A DNA stretch of 64,000 nt from Gemmatimonadota bacterium (GTDB lineage Bacteria > Gemmatimonadota > Gemmatimonadetes > Gemmatimonadales > Gemmatimonadaceae), in assembly GCA_027307165.1 (NCBI GenBank), contig DAHUXM010000024.1, positions 124,001 through 188,000 on the forward strand, in the 5' to 3' direction. Below the pieces are notes generated by a model. That model made no database searches and had not been told where the DNA came from. It saw only the letters and a program-made list of their open reading frames with translations. Below, one piece after another: positions 45,578 to 61,201 of the stretch (positions are counted from its first letter, which is position 1; each line of letters opens with the position of its first letter). The translations under genes and the position numbers were made by a program.

Positions 45578-45603
45578 ATGGATCCCCGCTTTCGCGGGGA
45601 TGA
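45578..45603. repeat. REP family B copy (variant)
   Basis: ATGGATCCCCGC-TTTC-GCGGGGATGA in the minus orientation. Differs from the copies at 57.5 kb by CCCC/GGGG in place of CCC/GGG arms. Confidence 0.85.
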
Positions 45604-45677
45604 CGAACGGCGCGGGGACAACGAACGGGGCGGGGACGACTATTACCGCCTACCCCCCGGCCGAACCGGCGCGCCCA

Positions 45678-46430
45678 TCACGTCGTGAATTCGCTCCGGT
45701 AGCCGAGCTGCTCCGATAGCGAGTTGGCAGCCTTCAACACCGCCTCGCTGCAGAGTTTGAGTCGGTCTTCAGGAACTCTGGAGATCGGCGCGCCGATGGT
45801 GAGCGCGCCGACCACCAGGCCCGTGTGATTCCGGACCGGCGCACCCACCGCCGCCAGGTCGTCCTCCATCTCGGCCCACGCAACTGAATAGCCCTGCTCG
45901 CGCACCGTCGCCAGCTCTTCGAGAAAGTCGTCGAGGGTCGTGATGCTTCGCGCGGCGAGCTTTGGAAACTGTGCCGGCAGCAGTCGTCGCAGCTCCGCCG
46001 GCGCGTGCCAGGCCAGCAACGACTTGCCCGCGGCAGTGGCGTGGACCGGAAGACGGCGACCGACCCAACCAGTATGCATGATTGGACGCGGGCTCTCGAC
46101 CGCCGAAAGGTTCATCGCTTCGGCCCCGACCAGCACCGCGAGATTGGAAGTCTCGCCCGTCGTAGCCGCGAGCCACTGCAGCTCGGCGATCGCGAGCCGC
46201 TGAAGGCTCGTGGCATCGCGCGCCAGCTCGCCGATGACGGCGAGCCGCGCTGATAGCCGGTAGCGCAGCGAAACCGGGTCGCGATCGAGGAACCCCGCGG
46301 CCTCCATCGCGCTCAGCCAGCGCGACAGCGTTCCCTTGGAAAGTCCGAGCTGGTTGGCCGCCTCCACCACGCCGACCTCGCGAAGGCTGGGCGAAAACAG
46401 CTCCAGGACGCTCATGCTCTTTTTCAGCAC
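45678..46430 (-). CDS. IclR-family transcriptional regulator
   Basis: 250 residues from GTG 46430. N-terminal winged helix SMSVLELFSPSLREVGVVEAANQLGLSKGTLSRWLSAMEAAGFL, then the GAF-like ligand domain with AELQWLAATTGETSNLAVLVG, GRRLPVHATAAGKSLLAW and GYSVAWAEMEDDLAAVGAPV, the latter being the classic GxxxxxxExxxxxxAxAxPV effector pocket. IclR proteins often control uptake or catabolism of aromatic and acyl compounds. It sits between the secreted D-aminoacylase and the divergently transcribed SusCD-acylase operon, the likely target. The longer frame to 46505 has less typical N-terminus. Confidence 0.9.
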   Translation of the reverse strand: MLKKSMSVLELFSPSLREVGVVEAANQLGLSKGTLSRWLSAMEAAGFLDRDPVSLRYRLSARLAVIGELARDATSLQRLAIAELQWLAATTGETSNLAVLVGAEAMNLSAVESPRPIMHTGWVGRRLPVHATAAGKSLLAWHAPAELRRLLPAQFPKLAARSITTLDDFLEELATVREQGYSVAWAEMEDDLAAVGAPVRNHTGLVVGALTIGAPISRVPEDRLKLCSEAVLKAANSLSEQLGYRSEFTT

Positions 46431-46452
46431 AGTTCTTCTCGTGACAGGTGAG

Positions 46453-46467
46453 TGCAACCCTGTTGCA
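46453..46467. promoter_or_regulatory. Inverted repeat near the iclR start
   Basis: TGCAAC-CCT-GTTGCA, 6-bp arms, 23 bases upstream of the assumed GTG. A possible autoregulatory IclR site. Confidence 0.45.
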
Positions 46468-46625
46468 AACTCTAGAACTCTAACCGCATCCCCAGATATA
46501 CGCACGGGAGCGGCTGTCGTGACGAGCGAATCTGGTGCTTTCGCACAAGCCGCGACGAAACCCCATCCTTGCGCGACACGACATGCCGTACGATGTTAAT
46601 TCCGCGTTAAGACAATTGATGGGAC

Positions 46626-46760: not shown

Positions 46761-49700
46761 ATGATTACTGATCTGCTTCGCGCCCGCTGTCGTGGCGCGA
46801 TTGGCGCGTTCGTGCTGCTTGTGTCGTTCGCTGGGGTTGCTGCCGCCCAGACGGGAACCGTTACGGGACACGTGATGGTGAGGGGCACGACCCAGCCGAT
46901 TCCCGACGCGCATGTGACGGTCACGGGGACGAATCTGGGCGCATCGACCAATGCGAGCGGCGCGTACAGGATTTCCGGTCTGAAGCCGGGAACGTACAGG
47001 GTGCGCGCGCTGCGCATCGGCTACGCAGAGCAGCAGCAGTCGCTCACTATCACAGACGGTCAGTCGGCAACGGTCGACTTCGCGCTCGAAGCCGTCGCGA
47101 CCAAGCTCGAAGGGGTCGTGACGACTGTGACGGGCCAGCAGCGAAAGATCGAGGTCGGCAACGCGATCGCACAGATCGACGCGGCCAAGGATGTTCAGAC
47201 CAAGGCCGTGGCAAATGTGGCAGATCTGCTCACTTCGCGCGCGGCCGGCGTTCAGGTTACGCCCGGTCTCAACACGGGTGGCGGATCGCGCATCCGCATT
47301 CGCGGAACGAGCTCCCTGTCGCTCTCCAACAATCCGATCTACGTCATCGACGGAGTTCGCGTCGAGGGCACGACCGGTTCATCGACACTGAGCGTGGGTG
47401 GAACGACGCCAGACAGAATCGACGACATCAATCCTGAAGAAATTGCTTCCATCGAAGTAGTTCGCGGTCCATCAGCGGCGACGCTGTACGGCACCGACGC
47501 GGCCAACGGTGTGATCGTCATCACGACGAAACACGGCACCTCCGGAAAGACGGAGCTCAGGTACTTCACCGAACAGGGCGTGCACGTCGACAACAACACC
47601 TATCCGGACGCGTACACCGGATGGACGACCGGCAAGACTGCGGCGACGACGTCGAGTGTGTCCAACCGGGTGAATTGTTATTTGACCGCCCAGGCCTACG
47701 GAACGTGCACGCAGGATAGCGTTACCAGCTACAATCTCTACAACGACCCTCAATCGACGCCGAACGGGGCAGGTTATCGGCAGGCGCACGGGCTGCAGTT
47801 GGGCGGCGGATCACCGGCTGTTCGCTATTTCATGAGCGGCCAGTGGGAGAGCGAGGACGGCGTCCTCAAGGTGCCGGCGTTCGACCAGGCCTATCTCGCG
47901 GCGCACAATCTCAAGCTTCGCCCGGAAGCGGCCGACCCGAATCACCTGGGCAAGATCTCGACCCGGGCGAACTTCAACATGGCGCTCAGTCCGCAGTTCG
48001 ATCTCGCGTTCAACACGGGCTACATATCGCAGAACTTGCGACTCCCGACGAGCGATGACTCGGGAACCGAAGGAGTCGCCGGCAACACGTACGCGGGACC
48101 GGGATTCAAGTACAACATCAATCCGTCGACCGGCGACACCCTGTACGGCTGGCGTCAGATCACGCCACGCGACATCTACCAGGTCTACACCAATCAGGCG
48201 ATCCAGCGCGTCATCACTGGAGGTAACTCCAACTGGCGTCCGAGCGACTGGTTCACGGTCCGCGCTGATCTCGGACTGGACTACATCAACCGCACGGACA
48301 CGCAGCTCTGCCGTTTCGCAGAGTGCCCGAATCTGGGCGGCGACAGCCGGCTTGGCTTCAAGATCGACAATCGCACCAACTTCTTCACCTACACGGCGAA
48401 CCTGAGCGGCAGCGCCACGCACAAGATCAACGACGCTGTCGGATCGACCACGACGGTCGGTCTTCAGTTCGTTCGCAGCCTGTTCGATCGCAATGGCGCA
48501 GAGGGCATTCACCTCTCGCCCGGCGCGACGACGATCACTGGCGCCGGCACACTCACCGCCGACGAGTCGACCACCGAGACCCGCACGCTCGGTGCATTCC
48601 TCGAAGAACGCCTTGCTTTCGGTGACAACCTGTTCCTGACCGGCGCGGTGCGCTCGGATCGCAACAGCGCGTTCGGTGCGAACTTCAAGACCGTTCTGTA
48701 TCCCAAGGTGTCCGCATCGTGGGTCATCTCGAACCAGTCGTTCTTCCCGAAGTTCAGCTGGGTTAATCAGCTGCGTCTGCGCAGTGCGTACGGCGCATCC
48801 GGTGTCGAGCCGGGAACCACCGACGCGGTCCAGTACTACACGGCCACCAACGCGCTTACCTCCAGTGGCAATGCGCCTGCACTGGTCTTCTCGGCGCTCG
48901 GCAACCAGAACCTCAAGCCGGAGCGGTCTTCCGAGTTCGAGCTTGGCGCGGACGGAACGTTCTTCGGCGGCCGGATATCCAGCGAGATCACGTACTACAG
49001 CAAGCAGTCCAAGGACGCACTCGTCAGTCGCGTTCTGCCGCCGTCGCTCGGCACCGGAACCACGGCACGTCTCGAGAACCTCGGGCATGTGAGCAACAAG
49101 GGTTGGGAGGCGCTGGTCACGTTGATACCGATCCAGCACGTTGGATACGGCTGGGACATCACGTTCAACGGATCGACTAACACCAACGAGCTCGTGAGCC
49201 TGGGCGGCGTACCTCCGATCGTGCTGAGCTCCACGCTCCAGGATCGCGAGGGATACCCGCTCAACGGTTGGTGGACCAAGCCGATTCTGAGCTACAGCGA
49301 CAAGAATCACGACGGAGTCATCGAGTACAACAAGGATCCCACACTGAGCGAAGTCACCGTGGGCGATACCGCTGCGTACCTCGGTAACTCCATGCCGAAG
49401 TACCAGCTGGCGATGACGAACGGCATCGAGTTCTTCCATCGTCTGTTCCGTGTGGAAGCGATGTTCGACTACAAGGGTGACTACAAGATCTACAACAACA
49501 CCGAGCGCATTCGTTGCGCGAGCCGCAATAACTGCTCCGGTCTGATCAATCCTGCGTCATCGTTGTTCGAGCAGGCGCGTACCGTGGCGGTGCGAGAGAC
49601 GCCGAGTCGCACCGTGGGCGGCTTCATCGAGCCCGGCGACTTCATTCGCTTCCGTGAGCTCAACGTGACGTACACGGCTCCGGACCGCATCGCGAACAAG

Positions 49701-49877
49701 ATTCTCCACAGCCGGAACCTGGCCATCACGCTCGCAGCACGTAACCTCGGTATTGTCTGGACCAAGTACAGCGGTGTCGATCCCGAAGCGTTTGCGACGA
49801 CGGGCGACGCGCCTTCGGAATTCCAGGCTTTCGGTCCGCCGACGTACTATATGCTCCGCTTCTCCATCGGCTTCTAG
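46761..49877 (+). CDS. SusC/RagA-family TonB-dependent outer-membrane receptor
   Basis: 1038 residues. Signal peptide ending AAAQ at about 30; a CarboxypepD_reg-like domain (about 31-115; TGHVMVRGTTQPIPDAHVTV), a plug domain (about 135-240) with RIRIRGTSSLSLSNNPIYVIDGV and EVVRGPSAATLYGTDAANGVI, the SusC signature, then a beta-barrel ending in YMLRFSIGF, whose C-terminal aromatic is used for BAM insertion. It imports the substrate across the outer membrane with TonB-ExbBD energy; the partner SusD is encoded one base later. Antisense open frames are shadows of it. Confidence 0.93.
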   Translation: MITDLLRARCRGAIGAFVLLVSFAGVAAAQTGTVTGHVMVRGTTQPIPDAHVTVTGTNLGASTNASGAYRISGLKPGTYRVRALRIGYAEQQQSLTITDGQSATVDFALEAVATKLEGVVTTVTGQQRKIEVGNAIAQIDAAKDVQTKAVANVADLLTSRAAGVQVTPGLNTGGGSRIRIRGTSSLSLSNNPIYVIDGVRVEGTTGSSTLSVGGTTPDRIDDINPEEIASIEVVRGPSAATLYGTDAANGVIVITTKHGTSGKTELRYFTEQGVHVDNNTYPDAYTGWTTGKTAATTSSVSNRVNCYLTAQAYGTCTQDSVTSYNLYNDPQSTPNGAGYRQAHGLQLGGGSPAVRYFMSGQWESEDGVLKVPAFDQAYLAAHNLKLRPEAADPNHLGKISTRANFNMALSPQFDLAFNTGYISQNLRLPTSDDSGTEGVAGNTYAGPGFKYNINPSTGDTLYGWRQITPRDIYQVYTNQAIQRVITGGNSNWRPSDWFTVRADLGLDYINRTDTQLCRFAECPNLGGDSRLGFKIDNRTNFFTYTANLSGSATHKINDAVGSTTTVGLQFVRSLFDRNGAEGIHLSPGATTITGAGTLTADESTTETRTLGAFLEERLAFGDNLFLTGAVRSDRNSAFGANFKTVLYPKVSASWVISNQSFFPKFSWVNQLRLRSAYGASGVEPGTTDAVQYYTATNALTSSGNAPALVFSALGNQNLKPERSSEFELGADGTFFGGRISSEITYYSKQSKDALVSRVLPPSLGTGTTARLENLGHVSNKGWEALVTLIPIQHVGYGWDITFNGSTNTNELVSLGGVPPIVLSSTLQDREGYPLNGWWTKPILSYSDKNHDGVIEYNKDPTLSEVTVGDTAAYLGNSMPKYQLAMTNGIEFFHRLFRVEAMFDYKGDYKIYNNTERIRCASRNNCSGLINPASSLFEQARTVAVRETPSRTVGGFIEPGDFIRFRELNVTYTAPDRIANKILHSRNLAITLAARNLGIVWTKYSGVDPEAFATTGDAPSEFQAFGPPTYYMLRFSIGF

Positions 49878-49878
49878 G

Positions 49879-51291
49879 ATGACACCTCCAATGACTTCAC
49901 AAATGACAATACGTTCGCGCAGCTTCGTGCTGCGCTGGGCAGCGCCGCTCGCGGTTGTTGGTACGCTCGCGCTTGCCGCTTGCAACGTCGCTGACGTGCT
50001 GAAGGTTACAGATCCGGACGTCATCAATCCGAGCGACGTGCAGTCCGCTGCCGGTGCGTCAGCAGTCCGGTACGGCGCGATAGCACGACTCAATTCAGCA
50101 ACCAGCGGCGGCAGTACCGGTTCGGAAGGATTGTTCCTTCTGAGCGGCCTGCTGGCCGACGAGTGGAACAACGGCGACTCGTTCATCGACCGCCAGTCGG
50201 TGGACGAGCGCGTTATCAACCCATCGAACAGTTTCCTTACGGACGTCGATCGGATGCTGCACCGTGCGAGATTGGCGGCCACGCAGGCGGTGCAACTGCT
50301 GCAGAAGTACAGTCCAAACGGTCCGCCGTCGGATATTGCCGAGATGTATTTCGTTCAGGCGTATGTGGAAAACGCGATCGGCGAGAATTACTGCAACAGT
50401 CTCATACTGAGCACCATCACCAACGGCACGGAAGTCTACGGCTCGCCGATGTCGACGACCGATGCGTTCAAGCTTGCGCTCGCGCATGCAGACAGCGGCA
50501 TCGCGCTGATCACGGGAACGTCCGCTGCCGATCTGAGGGTGAAGGATGCGCTCATGGTGACGCGCGGCCGGATCCTGCTCAATCTCGACAGACCGGCAGA
50601 CGCCGCGGTGGCAGTGACAGGCGTGCCAACCAGCTTTGTGTACCAGAATCTGCATTCGCAGGCCACGACCGACAACCAGATGTGGAGCTATAACAACATC
50701 GCGCGCCGTTACAGCGTCAGCACTGGTGAAGGTACGAATGGTCTCGACTTCGCCACTGCGAACGATCCGAGGGTACCGATCTGCACGGGTGGTGATACGA
50801 AGTGCAAGGCGATCGGCGCCACGTTCAGCACGCGAGATGACGGATCGACTCCGCTATTCGTACAGATGATATGGCCGACGCGCGACGCTTCGGTGACGAT
50901 CGTTGGTGGTGTCGAAGCGCGCATGATCGAAGCCGAGGCGGCATTCCGCGCAGGCAATCCCGCCGGCGCGATCGCCAAGCTCAACCAGGCGCGCAGTGAA
51001 GGCGGTGTCGCCGGTCTTCCAGCGACTCTGACCGATCCCGGTACGGACGCGGCACGCGTCGACCTGATTTTCCGTGAGCGCGCCTTCTGGTTGTTCTCCA
51101 CGGGACATCGTGTAGGCGACATGCGCCGGCTCATCAAGTTCTATAACAGACCGGCCGAATCGGTCTTTCCGACCGGCGCGTGGCACAAGGGCGGAAATTA
51201 CGGTACGGACGTGAACTTCCCTGTTCCGCAGGCCGAGCAGAACAATCCAAACCTGCCCTCCGCGCAGACCTGCACTGATCGCAACGCGTGA
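49879..51291 (+). CDS. SusD/RagB-family outer-membrane lipoprotein
   Basis: 470 residues. Type II signal peptide with lipobox LALAAC (Cys35) following the Arg-rich start. SusD helices include NPSDVQSAAGASAVRYGAIARLNSA, the SQATTDNQMWSYNNIARRYS region and the C-terminal VARMIEAEAAFRAGNPAGAIAKLNQARSEGG (substitute: VEARMIEAEAAF), and FRERAFWLFSTGHRVGDMRRLIKFYNR near the end. It binds ligand on the cell surface and works as lid of the SusC barrel. ATG 49879 is one base after the susC stop; ATG 49891 is a possible alternative. Confidence 0.92.
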   Translation: MTPPMTSQMTIRSRSFVLRWAAPLAVVGTLALAACNVADVLKVTDPDVINPSDVQSAAGASAVRYGAIARLNSATSGGSTGSEGLFLLSGLLADEWNNGDSFIDRQSVDERVINPSNSFLTDVDRMLHRARLAATQAVQLLQKYSPNGPPSDIAEMYFVQAYVENAIGENYCNSLILSTITNGTEVYGSPMSTTDAFKLALAHADSGIALITGTSAADLRVKDALMVTRGRILLNLDRPADAAVAVTGVPTSFVYQNLHSQATTDNQMWSYNNIARRYSVSTGEGTNGLDFATANDPRVPICTGGDTKCKAIGATFSTRDDGSTPLFVQMIWPTRDASVTIVGGVEARMIEAEAAFRAGNPAGAIAKLNQARSEGGVAGLPATLTDPGTDAARVDLIFRERAFWLFSTGHRVGDMRRLIKFYNRPAESVFPTGAWHKGGNYGTDVNFPVPQAEQNNPNLPSAQTCTDRNA

Positions 51292-53465
51292 TGCATTCCG
51301 CATCCTTGCAAGGCTCCATGCGGTCGCTCCTTGTAGTTCCGCTCTTCGTCTGTGCCTCCACGATCGTGGAGGCACAGACTGGTCCGCCAGACATCGCGAC
51401 GCACGTAGAGGTGCGGCGCACCGAACACGGTGTGCCGCACATTCGTGCAGATAACATGGAGGCGGCCGGCTATGGCATGGGGTACGTACAGATCGAAGAT
51501 TACGGTGTTCGCGTCGCGATGGGATTGCTGCACTCGCGGGGTGAGATGGGTCGCTGGTTCGGACGCGACAGCATCGAAGGCGACTTCAACGCACGTCTGA
51601 CATACGAAGCAGCCGTTCGCGGCTATCCAACGCTCGATACGGATACGCGCGCGATTTATGACGGATTCGCCGAGGGCGTGAATCGTTACATCGAGTTGCA
51701 CCCCGACGAGTTTCCGGCTGGATTCGCGCCGCATTTCACCGGCTACGATGTACTCGCGCACGAAGTGTCGGGCACGTCAGCGCGTGAGGCTGCGCGGTTC
51801 CTCGACAGGATCGATCCCCAGGCGCCCCGCGGCAGAAACGCCGAGCCGGAAGTCGCAGTTGCGTCACCGATCGCAGGCGGCCAGGATCCGCCTGACGAGG
51901 GCTCCAATGCATGGGCCTTCGCGCCCAGCCGCACCAAGTCGGGACACGCGATTCTCTTGCGCAACCCGCATCTGAATTGGAATTCCGGTTACTACGAGGC
52001 GCAGCTCACGGTGGCTGGGATGGTGGATTTCTATGGCGATTTCCGCATCGGTAGTCCGTTCGGAGTCGTCGGAGGCTTCAATCGCGACCTCGGCTGGTCG
52101 ACGACCAACAATTCACCGCTGCTTTCCCAGATATACTCGCTCGACGTCGATTCGACGCAGGTGGATCACTACCTGCTCGATGGTGCGTCGATTCCGTTGC
52201 AACGCCAGCTGACGACAGTGGAGTTCCGCAACGGTAACGGCCTCTCGAGCGAGACGCGCGAAACGTTTCGCACCACGCTGGGTCCGGTCATCTATCGCGG
52301 CAATGGCAAGATCTACGTACTCAAGGCAGCTGGCGATGGTGATGTTCGCGGTGGCGAGCAGTTCCTGCGCATGATGCGCTCGCACTCGCTCACCGAGTGG
52401 AAGAACGCGATGCGCATGAGAGCCCGCATCACCTCCAACTTCACGTACGCGGATCGCGCGGGCAACATTCTTTACGTGTGGAACGCGTCGATACCGAAGC
52501 TGCCACTGCCCAGTGGCGGTGATACGGCCGCGGTACCGATAACCCGTACGTCGGAAGCATGGACCAGTTACATACCGTTCGACTCGCTGCCGCAGTTGCT
52601 CAACCCGAAGGGTGGTTATGTGGAGAATTCCAATGACCCCCCGTACTTCACCAATTTACGGCAGCCGCTGGACCGTTCGAAGTATCCAGCATACTTCCCC
52701 GAGCCGCGGCTCGGTCTGCGTCAGCAGCTTGCGCTCAGCCTGATCGACAACGATCACAAGTTGAACCTGCAGGATGTACTCGCGCTCAAGCATTCGTACA
52801 GGATGCTGCTCGCAGATCGCGTTCGTGACGATCTGGTCAGGGAAGTCCGCGCGTCCAATCCGTCGCCCGATGTTGCCAGGGCGATCGACATGATCGCGAA
52901 GTGGGATAAGACTGTTGCACCAACAAGTCGCGGCGGAGTGTTGTTCGAGATGTGGTGGCGCAAGTACGTCGATCACACTCGACCCGATACGATGTATGCA
53001 GTGCAATGGACCGAGAAGCAGCCCGCGTCGACGCCAAGCGGGATTCGCTTTCCGGATCGCTCGGTCGAGGCGTTCAAGTGGGCAGTCGAGGAGACGACGA
53101 GACGCTTCGGATCTCCGGACGTCGCATGGGGCGACGTGCATCGCGTGCGAATCGGGAAGGTCGATGTTCCGGTTGGCGGCTGCAATGGTGACATCGGATG
53201 CTTCCGCGTTCTGTGGTACAAGGACGACCCGGACGGCAAGCGCGAAGCAAATGGTGGCGACGGCTGGATTCTCGCAGTGGAGTTCGACAACGAGCCACAG
53301 GCCTACTCCGTACTCGCTTACGGAGAGAGCTCACGCGAGGATTCACCCTTCCACAGCGATCAGGCGGAGATGTTTGCCCGCGGCGAGCTGAAGCGCGTAT
53401 ACTGGCAGGAGAAAGATGTGGAGGCGCACACCATCCAACGCTACCGCCCTGGGGAAAAGCGGTAG
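51288..53465 (+). CDS. Penicillin acylase-family (Ntn-hydrolase) secreted acylase
   Basis: 725 residues. Signal peptide ends VEAQ at about 30. The precursor is expected to self-cleave before Ser206 (DEGSNAWAFAPSRTKSG), giving alpha (about 31-205) and beta subunits. VRRTEHGVPHIRADN is the typical N-terminal alpha segment; SGHAILLRNPHL, GDFRIGSPFGVVGGFNRDLGWSTTNN and the Asn-rich beta start are family features. Substrates of relatives include penicillins, acyl-homoserine lactones and N-acyl amino acids; given the locus, N-acyl amino acids or peptides are likely. Start GTG 51288 overlaps the susD stop. Confidence 0.88.
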   Translation: MMHSASLQGSMRSLLVVPLFVCASTIVEAQTGPPDIATHVEVRRTEHGVPHIRADNMEAAGYGMGYVQIEDYGVRVAMGLLHSRGEMGRWFGRDSIEGDFNARLTYEAAVRGYPTLDTDTRAIYDGFAEGVNRYIELHPDEFPAGFAPHFTGYDVLAHEVSGTSAREAARFLDRIDPQAPRGRNAEPEVAVASPIAGGQDPPDEGSNAWAFAPSRTKSGHAILLRNPHLNWNSGYYEAQLTVAGMVDFYGDFRIGSPFGVVGGFNRDLGWSTTNNSPLLSQIYSLDVDSTQVDHYLLDGASIPLQRQLTTVEFRNGNGLSSETRETFRTTLGPVIYRGNGKIYVLKAAGDGDVRGGEQFLRMMRSHSLTEWKNAMRMRARITSNFTYADRAGNILYVWNASIPKLPLPSGGDTAAVPITRTSEAWTSYIPFDSLPQLLNPKGGYVENSNDPPYFTNLRQPLDRSKYPAYFPEPRLGLRQQLALSLIDNDHKLNLQDVLALKHSYRMLLADRVRDDLVREVRASNPSPDVARAIDMIAKWDKTVAPTSRGGVLFEMWWRKYVDHTRPDTMYAVQWTEKQPASTPSGIRFPDRSVEAFKWAVEETTRRFGSPDVAWGDVHRVRIGKVDVPVGGCNGDIGCFRVLWYKDDPDGKREANGGDGWILAVEFDNEPQAYSVLAYGESSREDSPFHSDQAEMFARGELKRVYWQEKDVEAHTIQRYRPGEKR

Positions 53466-53560
53466 CGTGGCGAGCCTGGTTGGCGCGACGCCGGCCGGAG
53501 GATGCGGTGCAGCAGTTAGTGTGGGAAGATCATCTCAAGACACTGGAGAGTGGGCAGTAG

Positions 53561-54214
53561 ATGACAGAGCACGTGCGGTACGTCGAGCAGTTCCCCATGC
53601 GCGTCGGCCCGGTAACGCTGGAAGGAAGTCGTGTCCGGCTGATACCAATGACGCTGGATCATGTTGAAGCATTGTTCAAGGCGGCTGACTTCCCTGAGAT
53701 ATGGGAGCACACCACGACCCAGCCGATGGAAACGATCGCCGACATCAGAACATATATAGAAACTGCACTGACCGAGCAGGCGGCCGGCGAGACAATTCCC
53801 TTCGTAACGACGGATCGCGTTACCGGCGACGTGATCGGCTCCACGCGGTTTGCCGACATCAGTCCCAACGACCGACGCCTCGCGGTTGGCTGGACCTGGC
53901 TGCGGCCCGACCGTCAGCACACCGGCGTGAACGGCGAGGCCAAGGCGCTGATGCTGCAGCAGGCGTTCGACGTCTGGGGCGCGCTGCGGGTCGAGATCAG
54001 GACCGACGTGCGCAACACGAGATCGAGAGCCGCGATCGAGCGGATCGGTGGCACCTATGAGGGCACGCTGCGCCAGCACATGATCGTCGACGGCCGCGTA
54101 CGCAACACAGCGTATTACAGCGTCATAGATACGGACTGGCGGGATCCCGGTCACCGTGCGTACAAGAACGCACGTTCCTACGGCATCATCCCCAGGGCCG
54201 AGCCACTCGTCTGA
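53561..54214 (+). CDS. GNAT-family N-acetyltransferase (RimJ/RimL type), copy 1
   Basis: 217 residues. RimJ-like layout: VGPVTLEGSRVRLIPMTLDHVEALFKAA, then VIGSTRFADISPNDRRLAVGWTWLRPDRQHTGVNGEAKALMLQQAF, with the acetyl-CoA loop and ALRVEIRTDVRNTRSRAAIERIGGTYEG. A second, clearly similar gene lies at 60545-61201. These acetyltransferases acetylate N-terminal or small amine acceptors; the acceptor here is not known. It follows the acylase by 95 bases; the gap holds no supported gene. Confidence 0.88.
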   Translation: MTEHVRYVEQFPMRVGPVTLEGSRVRLIPMTLDHVEALFKAADFPEIWEHTTTQPMETIADIRTYIETALTEQAAGETIPFVTTDRVTGDVIGSTRFADISPNDRRLAVGWTWLRPDRQHTGVNGEAKALMLQQAFDVWGALRVEIRTDVRNTRSRAAIERIGGTYEGTLRQHMIVDGRVRNTAYYSVIDTDWRDPGHRAYKNARSYGIIPRAEPLV

Positions 54215-54251
54215 GCACACCCGGTCCTGTCAGCTAGATTTGAAGGCGAAG

Positions 54252-55073
54252 ATGTCCTCCAAGCCGACTTTCACCGTGGGCTCGCCCGAAAGCGCCGAAT
54301 CCATCACCATCCGCCGTGTCGCTACGCTGCCCGAATACGATGAGTGCGTCGCCATCGAGCGTGAAACGTGGGGCAGTCAGTTCGCCGAGGTGGTGCCGAG
54401 CATCATTCTGCGCATCGCACAGGAAGTGGGCGGCGTTACCGCCGCGGCGTTCGCCCCCGATGGCTCCATGCTCGGCTTCGTTTTCGGTATTACGGGCGTT
54501 CGAGACGGCGAGCTTGCGCACTGGTCCGACATGCTGGCGGTACGCGTCGGCGCGCGCGACATGGGCCTCGGGAAGAGGCTCAAGACATATCAGCGCGATC
54601 GCCTGCTCGAGATCGGCGTGCGCAAGATGTACTGGACGTACGACCCTCTCGTGGCGCGCAACGCATATCTCAATCTGATGCAGCTCGGCGCGCGCGCGGT
54701 GGAATATCGCACGAATTTCTATGGTGAAGATACCGGCAGCGTGCTGCACAGCGCGCTCGGTACCGATCGCTTCATCGTTGCGTGGCAGCTCGACGATGCC
54801 GCGCCGCGGGGCGCCAACCTGGACACGGCAGAGTGGTCGAGCACGCCCCTCGTCGAGGAAGTGCTTCCGGATCGGCTTCCGGATGACGCGCGTGTGCGGG
54901 TCGCGATACCGAACGATATCTTTGCAATACTCGACGTGGATGCAAAGCGCGCTACTCGCTGGCGCGAGACAACTCGCGCCGCCCTCACGACATATCTCGA
55001 CCGCGGATATTCCGTTCTCGGCTTCCTGCGCGGCGATGACGCCAGGCCGGGCACCTATTTACTGGCACGATGA
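54252..55073 (+). CDS. GNAT-superfamily acyltransferase of the COG3375 type (probable D-amino-acid N-acyltransferase)
   Basis: 273 residues from ATG 54252. N-terminal GNAT core: ITIRRVATLPEYDECVAIERETWG, FAPDGSMLGFVFGITG, HWSDMLAVRVGARDMGLGKRLKTYQRDRLLE (CoA loop) and KMYWTYDPLVARNAYLNLMQLGARAVEYRTNFYGE. COG3375 proteins are typically encoded beside o-succinylbenzoate synthase/N-succinylamino acid racemase genes, and in Geobacillus kaustophilus the GNAT succinylates D-amino acids so that the racemase can act. The same neighbour is present 22 bases downstream, which gives the assignment; the acyl donor here is not proven. Confidence 0.82.
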   Translation: MSSKPTFTVGSPESAESITIRRVATLPEYDECVAIERETWGSQFAEVVPSIILRIAQEVGGVTAAAFAPDGSMLGFVFGITGVRDGELAHWSDMLAVRVGARDMGLGKRLKTYQRDRLLEIGVRKMYWTYDPLVARNAYLNLMQLGARAVEYRTNFYGEDTGSVLHSALGTDRFIVAWQLDDAAPRGANLDTAEWSSTPLVEEVLPDRLPDDARVRVAIPNDIFAILDVDAKRATRWRETTRAALTTYLDRGYSVLGFLRGDDARPGTYLLAR

Positions 55074-55095
55074 CCCGCACCAACGGACCCAACCG

Positions 55096-56217
55096 ATGAT
55101 TCGAATTCAGGAGATCAAGCTTCACGAAATCCGGCTCCCGCTCAAGGAGCCATTTCGTATCTCGTCCGGATTGTGCACGGAGAGGCGAATCATGCTTCTC
55201 AAGGTGCGCGATGCTGACGGCGTCACGGTGTGGAGCGAATGCGTCGCGGGCGAGCGTCCGAACTACGCCTCCGAAACGATAGACGAGGCGTGGCTCGTAA
55301 TCACCGAATACGTCGCGCCCCGCGTGTTCGGAACGGCATTCGAGCAGGCTGCGCACGTTCATCCGGCGCTGGAGCTCAATTTCCGTGGCCACAACATGGC
55401 GAAGGCCGCGATCGAAATGGCCTCGTGGGCGCTCGTCGCAGAGCGCGATGGCATGCCGCTCGCGCGACTGCTCGGCGGCACGCGCACCGAGATCCCGACC
55501 GGAATATCGATAGGCATTCAGCAATCACCGGATGCGCTGGTCGCACGGGTCGGACGTGCGTTGGCGGACGGTTACCGCAAGATAAAGCTCAAGATTGAGC
55601 CAGGTCACGACGTGGACTTCATTCGCGCGGTACGCAATGCGTATCCCGATGCACCGTTGATGGCAGATGCGAACAACGCCTATACGCTCAAGGACGCCGC
55701 GCATCTCAAGCAGCTCGACCCGCTTCACCTCGTGATGATAGAGCAGCCGCTTGCACATGACGACATAGTGCGGCACGCCGAGCTGCAGCACATGCTCACG
55801 ACGCCGATCTGTCTGGATGAGTCGATAACCAGCGTCGATCGCGCCGAGGACATGATCACGCTCAAGAGCGGCCGCATCATCAACATCAAGCCCGGCCGCG
55901 TTGGCGGATTCCAGCAGGCTCGCGCGATTCACGATCTGGCCGCGAGGCATGGAATACCGGTCTGGTGTGGAGGCATGCTCGAGAGCGGAATAGGTCGCTC
56001 CTACAACGTCGCACTCGCGTCGCTCCCGAACTTCACGATTCCGGGCGATCTGAGCCCGAGCGCGCGCTACTGGGAGCGCGACATCATCAAGCCGGAGTGG
56101 ACCATGAGCCCCGATGGCATGATGCAAGTTCCGCTGAATCGTGCAGGCATCGGCGTCGCGGTCGACGAGGATCGCATCGATGATCTCACTGTCCGTGCCA
56201 CCACGCTCAGCGCGTAG
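55096..56217 (+). CDS. Enolase-superfamily racemase (N-succinylamino acid racemase / o-succinylbenzoate synthase group)
   Basis: 373 residues, typical length. Metal ligands Asp191 (LMADANNAY), Glu216 (IEQPL) and Asp241 (CLDES), the catalytic KxK (Lys164 and Lys166 in RKIKLKI) and the second catalytic Lys265 (NIKPGRVGG) are all present, the two-lysine pattern of the menC/NSAR group. No other menaquinone genes are in the window, and the neighbours are an acyltransferase and an M20 deacylase, so racemisation of N-acylamino acids (N-succinyl or N-acetyl) is far more likely than menaquinone synthesis. Confidence 0.88.
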   Translation: MIRIQEIKLHEIRLPLKEPFRISSGLCTERRIMLLKVRDADGVTVWSECVAGERPNYASETIDEAWLVITEYVAPRVFGTAFEQAAHVHPALELNFRGHNMAKAAIEMASWALVAERDGMPLARLLGGTRTEIPTGISIGIQQSPDALVARVGRALADGYRKIKLKIEPGHDVDFIRAVRNAYPDAPLMADANNAYTLKDAAHLKQLDPLHLVMIEQPLAHDDIVRHAELQHMLTTPICLDESITSVDRAEDMITLKSGRIINIKPGRVGGFQQARAIHDLAARHGIPVWCGGMLESGIGRSYNVALASLPNFTIPGDLSPSARYWERDIIKPEWTMSPDGMMQVPLNRAGIGVAVDEDRIDDLTVRATTLSA

Positions 56218-56237
56218 TAACACAAAGAGAAACCGAA

Positions 56238-57461
56238 ATGTCGACACCATCAGCAAGCGACGGCTCCGCGCCGCGCGTTCCCGAGTCCGTTCGGGCACTG
56301 TTTCCGGACGATCTCGCCCTTCAGCTCTCGGCGCTGCGACGCGATCTGCATCGTAATCCCGAGCTGTCGTGGCAGGAGAAGCGAACGTCGGATCTCCTCG
56401 CGTCGACGCTGGAAGGGTTCGGCGTCACCGACATCAAACGTGTCGCCAATACGGGGCTCATCGCACGCGTCCCGGGTCGCGACCACGCGGCCCCGATAGT
56501 CGCGCTGCGCGGAGACATCGATGCGCTACCCATCCACGAAGATACCGGTTTGGCATTCTCATCGGTGAACGATGGCGTGATGCACGCGTGTGGTCACGAC
56601 GTGCATGCGAGCTGGGCCGTTGCGGCGACCCGTCTGTTGCTCGAGTCTCCGGCACGAGGGGACGTGCTCGTCGTCTTTCAGCCTGCCGAAGAAGTCGGTG
56701 AAGGCGCGCGGGCGATCCTCGCAACCGGCGCGCTCGACTCCGTGCGCGCGATATTCGGAGGCCACGTCGATCGCAGATTCGAGGTAGGACAGGTAGTCGC
56801 GCAGGAAGGCGCACTCGCCGCATCCACGGATACGTTTCGCATAACACTCACCGGAGCCGGATCGCACGGTGCACGGCCGCACGAGTCGCACGATCCGATC
56901 GTCGGAGCAGGTGCGTTGATAGGCGCGTTGCAGACTATCGTCTCGCGACAGCTCGATCCCGCGAAGCCAGGTGTGGTGACGGTGGGGACGATCAAGGGTG
57001 GAAGCGCACCGAACATCATCCCGGATAGCGTGGAGCTTAGCGGCACCATTCGCGCCACGACCGCGGAGACGCGCGCGCTGCTCACCGGTGAAGTGCAGCG
57101 CATGGCCCAGGCAATCGCCGCAACGTATGGACTCAGCGCCGCTGTCGTGCTCAAGGGCGGCACTCCGCCAATAGTGAATCCCGCGATCGGCGCCAACTGG
57201 GCGCGCGAGGCAGTCACTCACGTGCTCGGCGCCAACGCACTCGTGCCGCTTGGCACCACCAACATGGGCGGCGAGGACTTCGCCGAGTACATCCAGAAGA
57301 TTCCCGGCTGCTTCATGCGAATCGGCGCACGCGAGAAAGACGGCCGCGTGATCGCCGCGCATTCGCCGTCATACTACGCATCCGAGGATGCACTGTTCAT
57401 CGGTGCCGCCGTACTGGCGGAATGCGCCCGCGTCGCGTCGGAGTCGCTGGCGGCGAAGTAA
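56238..57461 (+). CDS. M20-family amidohydrolase / N-acyl-L-amino acid deacylase
   Basis: 407 residues. Peptidase M20D pattern: RRDLHRNPELSWQE, VALRGDIDALPIHEDTG, HACGHDVHAS with Cys118 and His120 as metal ligands, FQPAEEVGEGA with Glu151/152, FGGHVDRRF, and TGAGSHGARPHESHDPI. These hydrolyse N-acyl amino acids (aminoacylase, IAA-amino acid hydrolase). After the racemase it would release the free L-amino acid. It starts 20 bases after the racemase and closes the cassette; a REP cluster follows. No signal peptide, so it acts in the cytoplasm. Confidence 0.9.
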   Translation: MSTPSASDGSAPRVPESVRALFPDDLALQLSALRRDLHRNPELSWQEKRTSDLLASTLEGFGVTDIKRVANTGLIARVPGRDHAAPIVALRGDIDALPIHEDTGLAFSSVNDGVMHACGHDVHASWAVAATRLLLESPARGDVLVVFQPAEEVGEGARAILATGALDSVRAIFGGHVDRRFEVGQVVAQEGALAASTDTFRITLTGAGSHGARPHESHDPIVGAGALIGALQTIVSRQLDPAKPGVVTVGTIKGGSAPNIIPDSVELSGTIRATTAETRALLTGEVQRMAQAIAATYGLSAAVVLKGGTPPIVNPAIGANWAREAVTHVLGANALVPLGTTNMGGEDFAEYIQKIPGCFMRIGAREKDGRVIAAHSPSYYASEDALFIGAAVLAECARVASESLAAK

Positions 57462-57489
57462 GAGACAGGGCGTGCCGACACGCGGACTC

Positions 57490-57515
57490 GTCATTCCCGC
57501 GAAAGCGGGAATCCA
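57490..57515. repeat. REP family B copy, plus orientation
   Basis: TCATTCCCGCGAAAGCGGGAATCCAT, an ATTCCCGC/GCGGGAAT hairpin after the M20 gene stop. It could also act as a terminator or RNA-end stabiliser. Confidence 0.85.
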
Positions 57516-57564
57516 TGTTATCGATCTCTGGATTCGATGACGGCAGAAAGTGGGTCGGCAGCAG

Positions 57565-57664
57565 ATGGATTCCCGCTTTCGCGGGAATGACGGCGGACTG
57601 ATGGATTCCCGCTTTCGCGGGAATGACGGCGGACTGATGGATTCCCGCTTTCGCGGGAATGACG
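57565..57664. repeat. REP family B, tandem array of three
   Basis: Three units in the minus orientation at a 36-bp period (57565, 57601, 57637). Each has ATGGATTCCCGC-TTTC-GCGGGAATGA; the first two are followed by the same CGGCGGACTG, the last by CGATACCTGT. It sits between the convergent M20 and nadE genes. Confidence 0.88.
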
Positions 57665-57683
57665 ATACCTGTGCCGTTTTCCC

Positions 57684-59633: not shown

Positions 59634-60548
59634 TTACCGCACCCGCAATGTGCCCTGGCTCACCAACACCGACTTCCCCGCGACCTTGACCGCGCCTATC
59701 TCACCGCCACTCTTCTCGGCCGACAGCGACAGTATGCTCGGCCGTCCCATCTCGAAGCCCTGCTCGACGGTCCAGCTCAGCTCTGCGCCGTCTGCTGCAT
59801 GTTTCGCGAGATAGGCTGCGAGACACGCAGCTGCAGAGCCAGTCGCGGGGTCCTCGCCAATCCCCAGGCTGGGTGCGAACATCCGCGCGCGGATCGCACC
59901 ACCCCTTGATACTGCGCGTGCATCGAAGAGATACACTTCCTTTGTCCACCCATTCGCCAGCACTCGCTCCCACGTCGCGCGGTCGAGCCTTGCGCGACTG
60001 ACGGCGTCGCGGCTCGTGAGTGGCGCAATGAGGAATGGAACCCCGCACGATACCGCTTCAGCTGTCAGTGGTGTCGTCGACACATCCGATACGTCGAGCG
60101 AGAGGAGAGCGGCGATGTCGCGTGCCGTTGGCGCATCATCCCTGAACTCCGGCGCTTGCGCGGTTGTGAGCTGCGCGGAAACCGGCTTTCCGTTCTCGAC
60201 ACGTATCGTCACCGGAACAGGCCCTACACCTTCGCCCAGCACGATGTGCGTCGCGCCTTCGGTCAGTGGTATCATTCCTGTCGCAGCCAGCAGAAACGCA
60301 GTGCCGACGGTTGGATGGCCGGCGAATGGCAGCTCCCGGCCTGGCGTGAAGATGCGAACGCGCCGCGTGTGCGAGGTGTCTTCGGGTGGAAGTACGAACA
60401 CGGTCTCCGAGAGATTGAACTCTCTGCAGATCTGTTGCATCTGCTCCGCATTCAGTCCGCGTGCATCGGTCAGTACCGCGAGCGGATTGCCGCCGAATAT
60501 CGTATCGGTGAAGACGTCGAGCGTGTGATATGCGTAAGCGTCGCTCAA
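59634..60548 (-). CDS. PhzF-family isomerase/epimerase-like protein
   Basis: 304 residues from TTG 60548, which overlaps the stop of the GNAT gene (TTGA). Two similar halves (diaminopimelate-epimerase fold): YAYHTLDVFTDTIFGGNPLAVLTDA with FNLSETVFVLPP, FTPGRELPFAGHPTVGTAFLL and, in the second half, FAPSLGIGEDPATGSAAACLAAYL. PhzF uses a Glu as acid/base (Glu47-type residue in NLSETVF) with no cofactor. Substrate unknown; the phenazine role is unlikely as no phz genes are nearby. Confidence 0.9.
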   Translation of the reverse strand: MSDAYAYHTLDVFTDTIFGGNPLAVLTDARGLNAEQMQQICREFNLSETVFVLPPEDTSHTRRVRIFTPGRELPFAGHPTVGTAFLLAATGMIPLTEGATHIVLGEGVGPVPVTIRVENGKPVSAQLTTAQAPEFRDDAPTARDIAALLSLDVSDVSTTPLTAEAVSCGVPFLIAPLTSRDAVSRARLDRATWERVLANGWTKEVYLFDARAVSRGGAIRARMFAPSLGIGEDPATGSAAACLAAYLAKHAADGAELSWTVEQGFEMGRPSILSLSAEKSGGEIGAVKVAGKSVLVSQGTLRVR

Positions 60549-61201
60549 ACCAGTGGCTCCGGATTTGGCATGATGCCGTACGAGACGGCGTTCTTGTACG
60601 CGCGGTGGTTCGGGTCGCGCCAATCGTAATCCATGATGCTGTAGTAGACAGTATCACGCACGCGGCCGTCGCGCACTACCATGTGTTGCCGGAAGGTTCC
60701 TTCGTACAGGCCGCCTATCCGCTCGATTGCCGCGCGCGATCTCGTGTTGCGCACATCGGTCTTTATCTCCACGCGTAGCGCGCCCCACACATCGAAGGCC
60801 TGGCGTAACATCATCGCCTTCGCCTCTCCATTCACTCCCGTACGCTGACGGTCGGGGCGCATCCACGTCCATCCGATCTCGACTCGGTGATCGGCGAGAC
60901 TCATGTTCGCGAATCGCGTGGAGCCGATGATCTCGCCAGTTACCGGATCGGTCGTGACGAATGGGACTGCAGTTCCCGCCGCCGCTTCAGCGAGTGCGAC
61001 ATCGACATAGCGTCGCATGTCGTCGACAGTCTCTATTGGACGCGTCCCGGTGTGTTCCCAGATCGCGGGGAAATCCGCGGCTCTGAACAGCGCATCCACG
61101 TGATCGCGTGTCATTGGAATGAGACGGGCCCGTTGCCCTTCGAGGGTTACGGGCCCGACATGCATGGGAATCTGTTCGACGTACCGCGTCGCGTCTGTCA
61201 T
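60545..61201 (-). CDS. GNAT-family N-acetyltransferase (RimJ/RimL type), copy 2
   Basis: 218 residues, clearly paralogous to the protein at 53561-54214 with matching N-terminus (TRYVEQIPMHVGPVTLEGQRARLIPMTRDHVDALFRAADFP), CoA segment RQRTGVNGEAKAMMLRQAF and C-terminus. Identity appears high along the full length, so the copies arose by duplication and then diverged. The gene is upstream of phzF in the operon, with coupled overlap. Confidence 0.88.
   Translation of the reverse strand: MTDATRYVEQIPMHVGPVTLEGQRARLIPMTRDHVDALFRAADFPAIWEHTGTRPIETVDDMRRYVDVALAEAAAGTAVPFVTTDPVTGEIIGSTRFANMSLADHRVEIGWTWMRPDRQRTGVNGEAKAMMLRQAFDVWGALRVEIKTDVRNTRSRAAIERIGGLYEGTFRQHMVVRDGRVRDTVYYSIMDYDWRDPNHRAYKNAVSYGIMPNPEPLV

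Follow-up and report, generated by a model that had tools for sequence, protein, structure and literature searches.

A predicted D-amino acid inversion cassette in Gemmatimonadota and a possible menaquinone role of its enolase

The locus studied here lies in a window of 64,000 nucleotides (positions 124,001 to 188,000 of contig DAHUXM010000024.1, assembly GCA_027307165.1) from a member of the Gemmatimonadaceae, and holds a GNAT, an enolase and an M20 gene in tandem. It raises the question whether the three products convert D- into L-amino acids, the enolase acting as an N-succinylamino acid racemase (NSAR), or whether the enolase is the o-succinylbenzoate synthase (OSBS, MenC) of menaquinone synthesis with neighbours that are coincidental. 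A pathway consisting of a GNAT succinyltransferase, an NSAR and an L-desuccinylase was reportedly described in Geobacillus kaustophilus by Sakai and colleagues in 2006; judged by enzyme class, it resembles the window in having the same three enzymes tightly linked. The G. kaustophilus NSAR and L-succinylase have been used jointly in biocatalysis (reviewed in PMC7431475).

The initial annotation had described three adjacent genes separated by gaps of 22 and 20 bases, and all three open reading frames are indeed uninterrupted, in tandem and on the + strand (window positions throughout):

54252..55073, + strand: GNAT N-acyltransferase, 273 aa, predicted D-amino acid N-acyltransferase (from GNAT fold and enolase linkage)
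55096..56217, + strand: NSAR/OSBS-family enolase, 373 aa, predicted N-acyl(succinyl)amino acid racemase (from TIGR01928, PDB matches and residues)
56238..57461, + strand: M20D amidohydrolase, 407 aa, predicted N-acyl-L-amino acid deacylase (from TIGR01891, YxeP and motifs)

The family identities proposed from the letters alone were borne out, by curated profiles for the enolase and the M20 and by predicted fold for the GNAT. Profile matching placed the enolase in the NSAR/OSBS group with 348.9 bits to TIGR01928 (cut-off 200.65), and its best PDB matches are the N-acylamino acid racemases 2ggg, 1r0m and 1sja; the solved enzymes nearest to it come from Deinococcus, Amycolatopsis and Thermus. The residues of the NSAR/OSBS group (MLE subgroup of the enolase superfamily), a KxK motif, a second catalytic lysine and an Asp-Glu-Asp metal site, are present as K164 and K166, K265, and D191, E216 and D241, along with K162 and R268; the catalytic lysines (Lys164/166, Lys265) and ligands (Asp191, Glu216, Asp241) named beforehand are thus at their positions. 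Enolases of Deinococcus and Priestia that adjoin the same GNAT family are ~44-45% identical to it. The M20 product scored 328.5 bits against TIGR01891 (cut-off 153.75), has Bacillus subtilis YxeP (1ysj) as best PDB match and contains the metal-site motifs HACGHD and QPAEE. Enzymes of the M20D family accept broad substrates, and the relatives of the present one are L-acyl hydrolases.

The GNAT (54252-55073) had no Pfam or NCBIfam family match at E<=0.001. An AlphaFold2 model built from 50 related sequences reached a mean pLDDT of 92.1, and its residues 16-184 form a GNAT fold with VIA-align Z-scores of 17.0 to human Naa10 and 16.1 to E. coli RimI. N-alpha-acetyltransferases are its closest structural neighbours (Z about 16-17), which means that the nearest folds belong to enzymes acylating alpha-amino groups. 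At the sequence level it is 29-36% identical to GNATs adjoining an enolase in Deinococcus, Priestia, Sulfitobacter and Arthrobacter. Family membership cannot decide between NSAR and OSBS, nor can it decide D-specificity.

Linkage was studied by a scan of named genomes with the GNAT query alone, which yielded 80 GNAT loci. An enolase was found at most 500 bases from the GNAT in 64 of these and at most 3 kb away in 73; several of the loci that lack one within 3 kb are short contigs. This arrangement is far beyond chance. GNAT-enolase linkage occurs throughout Gemmatimonadota, and the same GNAT family stands beside an enolase outside the phylum, in Deinococcus, Priestia, Lysinibacillus, Sulfitobacter and Arthrobacter plasmid loci. 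Since the same pairing occurs outside the phylum, the cassette represents a known kind of cluster. An M20 of the same family adjoins the pair in 25 of the 37 closer relatives with enough downstream sequence and is not adjacent in the remaining third; M20 genes belong to the cluster also in Lysinibacillus, Priestia and D. ficus, as in the window. In other bacterial groups the pair is often accompanied by an M20 and by transporters for amino acids or peptides, for instance an amino-acid ABC importer in Sulfitobacter and an M20 with a peptide transporter in Lysinibacillus. Relatives also frequently carry genes for GntR regulators, serine beta-lactamase-fold hydrolases, D-aminoacylase-like Amidohydro_3 proteins and X-Pro-type peptidases nearby, an assortment that would fit the utilisation of peptides and D-amino acid compounds. 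Among the loci collected, a plasmid record of Stenotrophomonas rhizophila equals a Lysinibacillus fusiformis plasmid in gene content, order and lengths (L218/L219), a sign that the former may be contaminated or mislabelled.

Comparison with better known systems shows where the likeness ends. The gene order had been thought the same as in Geobacillus, a claim at odds with the Bacillaceae relatives compared: in Lysinibacillus and Priestia the M20 gene comes first, followed by GNAT and enolase, whereas in the window it stands last, behind GNAT and enolase. The kin of the Deinococcus racemase (1r0m/1xpy) on plasmid MP1 is ~44% identical over its full length, has the same residues and a GNAT in its gene run; the D. 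radiodurans MP1 locus differs in carrying binding-protein genes where the window has a SusCD importer, and no M20 is annotated adjacent to it. Deinococcus belongs to a futalosine-type phylum (PMC3914697), like the window's genome. The Amycolatopsis NSAR/OSBS (1sja) falls in the same enolase group and shares KxK...K, the metal ligands and the NIKPGRVGG segment with its arginine. It has been described as an OSBS in its biological function (PMC4215206), a role for which the window's genome has no pathway.

The menaquinone genes of that genome were searched by profile. No match to MenD was found in an assembly with 2% missing, and no MenB over the cut-off. A futalosine cluster is present on contig C25, with MqnC (470.9 bits, cut-off 428.1), MqnE (446.7 bits, cut-off 434.55) and, between them, a PF02621 protein of the MqnA family. 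Because MenD and MenB over cut-off are absent and the futalosine route is represented by MqnA, MqnC and MqnE, the window's genome needs no MenC. A menaquinone pathway lacking menC, named in the initial annotation as an observation that would refute its reading, was sought and is not there, and neither is a classical men pathway that would call for a dedicated MenC. On these grounds the enolase was discarded as MenC of this genome.

A survey of 200 Gemmatimonadota genomes extended this picture to the phylum. menD was over cut-off in 64 and mqnC in 113, with an overlap of 0; one order is described as preferring the classical route and Gemmatimonadales the futalosine route (PMC9426454). Enolases well above the TIGR01928 cut-off, together with three hits cut short, were considered strong, and partial genes were included in the counts by route. 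Of the 67 MenD genomes, 62 have a strong enolase; of the 120 futalosine genomes, 55 do. A GNAT lies within 3 kb of it in 53/55 futalosine versus 37/62 MenD genomes (Fisher P 1.3e-6, kinship ignored). The strong enolase is single in 36 of the 37 MenD genomes with a GNAT-linked enolase, where it is the only strong MenC candidate. Another menC family was considered for these and dropped, since TIGR01927 was over cut-off in 0 of 44 genomes tested, the 37 included. In three genomes with menD and without a strong enolase (G119, G124, G149) a different menC-like gene, below cut-off, lies a few kb from menD. Because it is the sole strong MenC candidate in 36/37, the linked enolase of MenD genomes is, on the simplest reading, predicted to be bifunctional and to do both jobs, racemase and OSBS. 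From families and linkage, the "menC" genes of futalosine genomes in the phylum look like racemases of the D-amino acid cassette.

Two sequence markers were set aside in the course of this survey. The conserved arginine near the second lysine (R268) is common to linked and unlinked enolases. A racemase tree, proposed beforehand as a way to group the enzyme with NSAR and not with menaquinone OSBS, does not by itself separate the two functions, because the clade of the window's enzyme contains enolases from genomes of both kinds, with MenD and with MqnC. A second, distinct enolase type (L156-L159), found chiefly in futalosine genomes from a different family of the order, reaches about 200-227 bits with TIGR01928 and has no NxKxxRxGG segment.

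The window's genome and its close relative G022 have mqnC and no menD, whereas G190, of the same genus, and palsa_1236 have menD and no mqnC. Their cassette enolases are 88% (G190) and about 89% (palsa_1236) identical to that of the window. G190 carries menF-D-H-B-A-E in a row (contig C5, 1-14000; L152), each step over at least one curated model cut-off; this operon has no menC, and an enolase nearby is galactarate-dehydratase-like. The cassette racemase is its only strong MenC candidate and, given an operon without menC, would be essential for menaquinone. Both genomes are draft assemblies in which a menC may be missed or a contig mis-binned. As a check on the latter, the oxidase flanking menD in G190 was compared and has no close match in the window's genome or G022; palsa_1236, likewise a draft genome and with a closely related cassette, shows the same menaquinone genotype as G190. 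It is conceivable, and we put it forward tentatively, that the cassette serves as a standing reservoir of o-succinylbenzoate synthase when lineages of the phylum switched between the futalosine and classical routes, the enolase probably doing both reactions.

The genes upstream bear on what the cassette may be fed with:

45678..46505, - strand: IclR-family regulator, divergent from susC, candidate regulator (PF01614, 131.1 bits)
46761..49877, + strand: SusC/RagA TonB-dependent importer (TIGR04056, 444.1 bits, cut-off 368.25)
49903..51291, + strand: SusD-family lipoprotein, start inferred (PF07980, 25.5 bits, cut-off 23.1)
51318..53465, + strand: penicillin-amidase/PvdQ-family acylase with apparent signal peptide and GSNAW nucleophile motif (PF01804, 386.6 bits); the open reading frame can start at 51288
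53561..54214, + strand: RimJ-like GNAT (Acetyltransf_3), possible operon member, 37 bases upstream of the cassette

Seven co-directional genes with gaps below 100 bases thus occupy 46761-57461 in the order SusC, SusD, penicillin acylase, RimJ, GNAT, racemase, M20, with the SusC-SusD pair (46761-51291, + strand) running in the direction of the catabolic genes. The operon is probably longer than the cassette and extends from SusC through M20 as a single transcript; both co-transcription and the link of SusCD to the cassette are what we infer from this layout. The acylase, with 233.6 bits, falls below the cut-off of 950 of the PvdQ model; it could supply amino acids by acting on N-acylated or amide substrates. 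A penicillin-amidase gene stands beside GNAT and enolase also in an Ignavibacteriales contig (L124, 3674-9022), a lineage far from that of the window. One RimJ-like GNAT gene lies on each side of the cassette (53561-54214 and 60545-61201); the two are similar and in opposite orientation, which resembles an inverted duplication. Palindromic GATTCCCGCTTTCGCGGGAATGAC elements lie just 3' of the M20 gene (57488-57671, four copies, three of them in a 36-base tandem) and one variant lies beyond the IclR gene (45581-45604), so that these elements bracket the predicted operon.

In G022, of the window's genus, SusC, SusD, acylase and RimJ likewise precede the cassette and an IclR gene is in the same place. 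In palsa_1236 (L072) SusC and SusD (49% and 39% identity) are divergent, RimJ lies between SusD and the cassette and the acylase is absent, and G190 has none of the four at its cassette. A SusC gene lies within 10 kb of the cassette in 10 of 45 closer relatives versus 2.8 to 5.5 expected (simulated P 0.0007 to 0.04), where the expectation assumes densities of 4 to 8 per Mb, guided by a genome count that may undercount. The SusCD importer, whose linkage had been said to look unusual, does not always accompany the cassette, being absent in G190, though it recurs nearby in other Gemmatimonadaceae. The linkage is recurrent and modestly enriched, and the upstream part of the operon (SusCD, acylase, RimJ) is lineage-specific.

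Taking gene families, cross-phylum linkage and a genome in which the enolase is not needed as MenC together, the conversion of D- to L-amino acids proposed at the outset is the best supported prediction, and we consider it likely that the cassette is a catabolic D-amino acid inversion pathway with SusCD and the acylase as probable suppliers. The GNAT would acylate the alpha-amino group of a D-amino acid with a succinyl or acetyl group taken from CoA. One of the two lysines of the enolase would then take the alpha-proton of the N-acyl-D-amino acid, a divalent metal would hold the enolate, and return of a proton on the other face would give the N-acyl-L-amino acid. The M20 enzyme, by hydrolysing the L-form only, would pull the sequence forward and free the L-amino acid. 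In the window's lineage the SusC/SusD importer and the secreted penicillin-type acylase would probably feed amino acids to the cassette. The conversion is predicted from families and linkage; the substrates, stereospecificities and acyl donor are predictions too.

Among other readings, salvage of N-acyl amino acids is unlikely but the strongest contender. SusCD and the acylase would import or split N-acylated compounds, the enolase racemise D-forms that arrive acylated and the M20 deacylate them, with a side role for the GNAT such as trapping excess amino acids. This would suit the SusCD and penicillin acylase preceding the cassette in the window and G022, the amidase gene of the Ignavibacteriales contig and the amidohydrolases that are common neighbours; yet across phyla it is the GNAT, and not the acylase or importer, that constantly accompanies the enolase, and G190 keeps the cassette without SusCD and acylase. 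A cassette that makes or detoxifies D-amino acids for cell wall or biofilm instead of feeding on them appears improbable: racemisation is reversible in principle and D-amino acids are toxic to some bacteria, but L-acyl hydrolysis by M20D enzymes, as known for the family, makes the D-to-L direction downhill, and the genes around the cassette encode catabolic hydrolases, importers and GntR/IclR-type regulators. Least credible of all, and very hard to sustain, is that the enolase is MenC amid coincidental neighbours. The best NCBIfam model, TIGR01928, does bear the name menC, and the same enzyme group is near-universal in MenD genomes of the phylum, but against this stand the MenD, MenB and futalosine findings in the window's genome and a GNAT linkage nearly invariant in futalosine genomes.

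If the cassette reading is right, its consequences reach beyond this locus. MenC has been counted without MenB in Gemmatimonadetes (1/1), Deinococcus-Thermus (12/12), Acidobacteria (4/5) and Planctomycetes (4/5) (PMC3914697, Table 1), and none of the papers searched treats "N-succinylamino acid racemase" together with menaquinone. The orphan MenC of futalosine phyla may be the NSAR of D-amino acid cassettes, which would explain these counts for Gemmatimonadetes and Deinococcus-Thermus and puts many "menC" annotations of the phylum in doubt. Close genome pairs with opposite routes present an 88% identical enzyme in two settings: one member has no menaquinone use for it, and the other seems to have no second candidate for OSBS. 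Such pairs open the evolution of a promiscuous enzyme to direct test.
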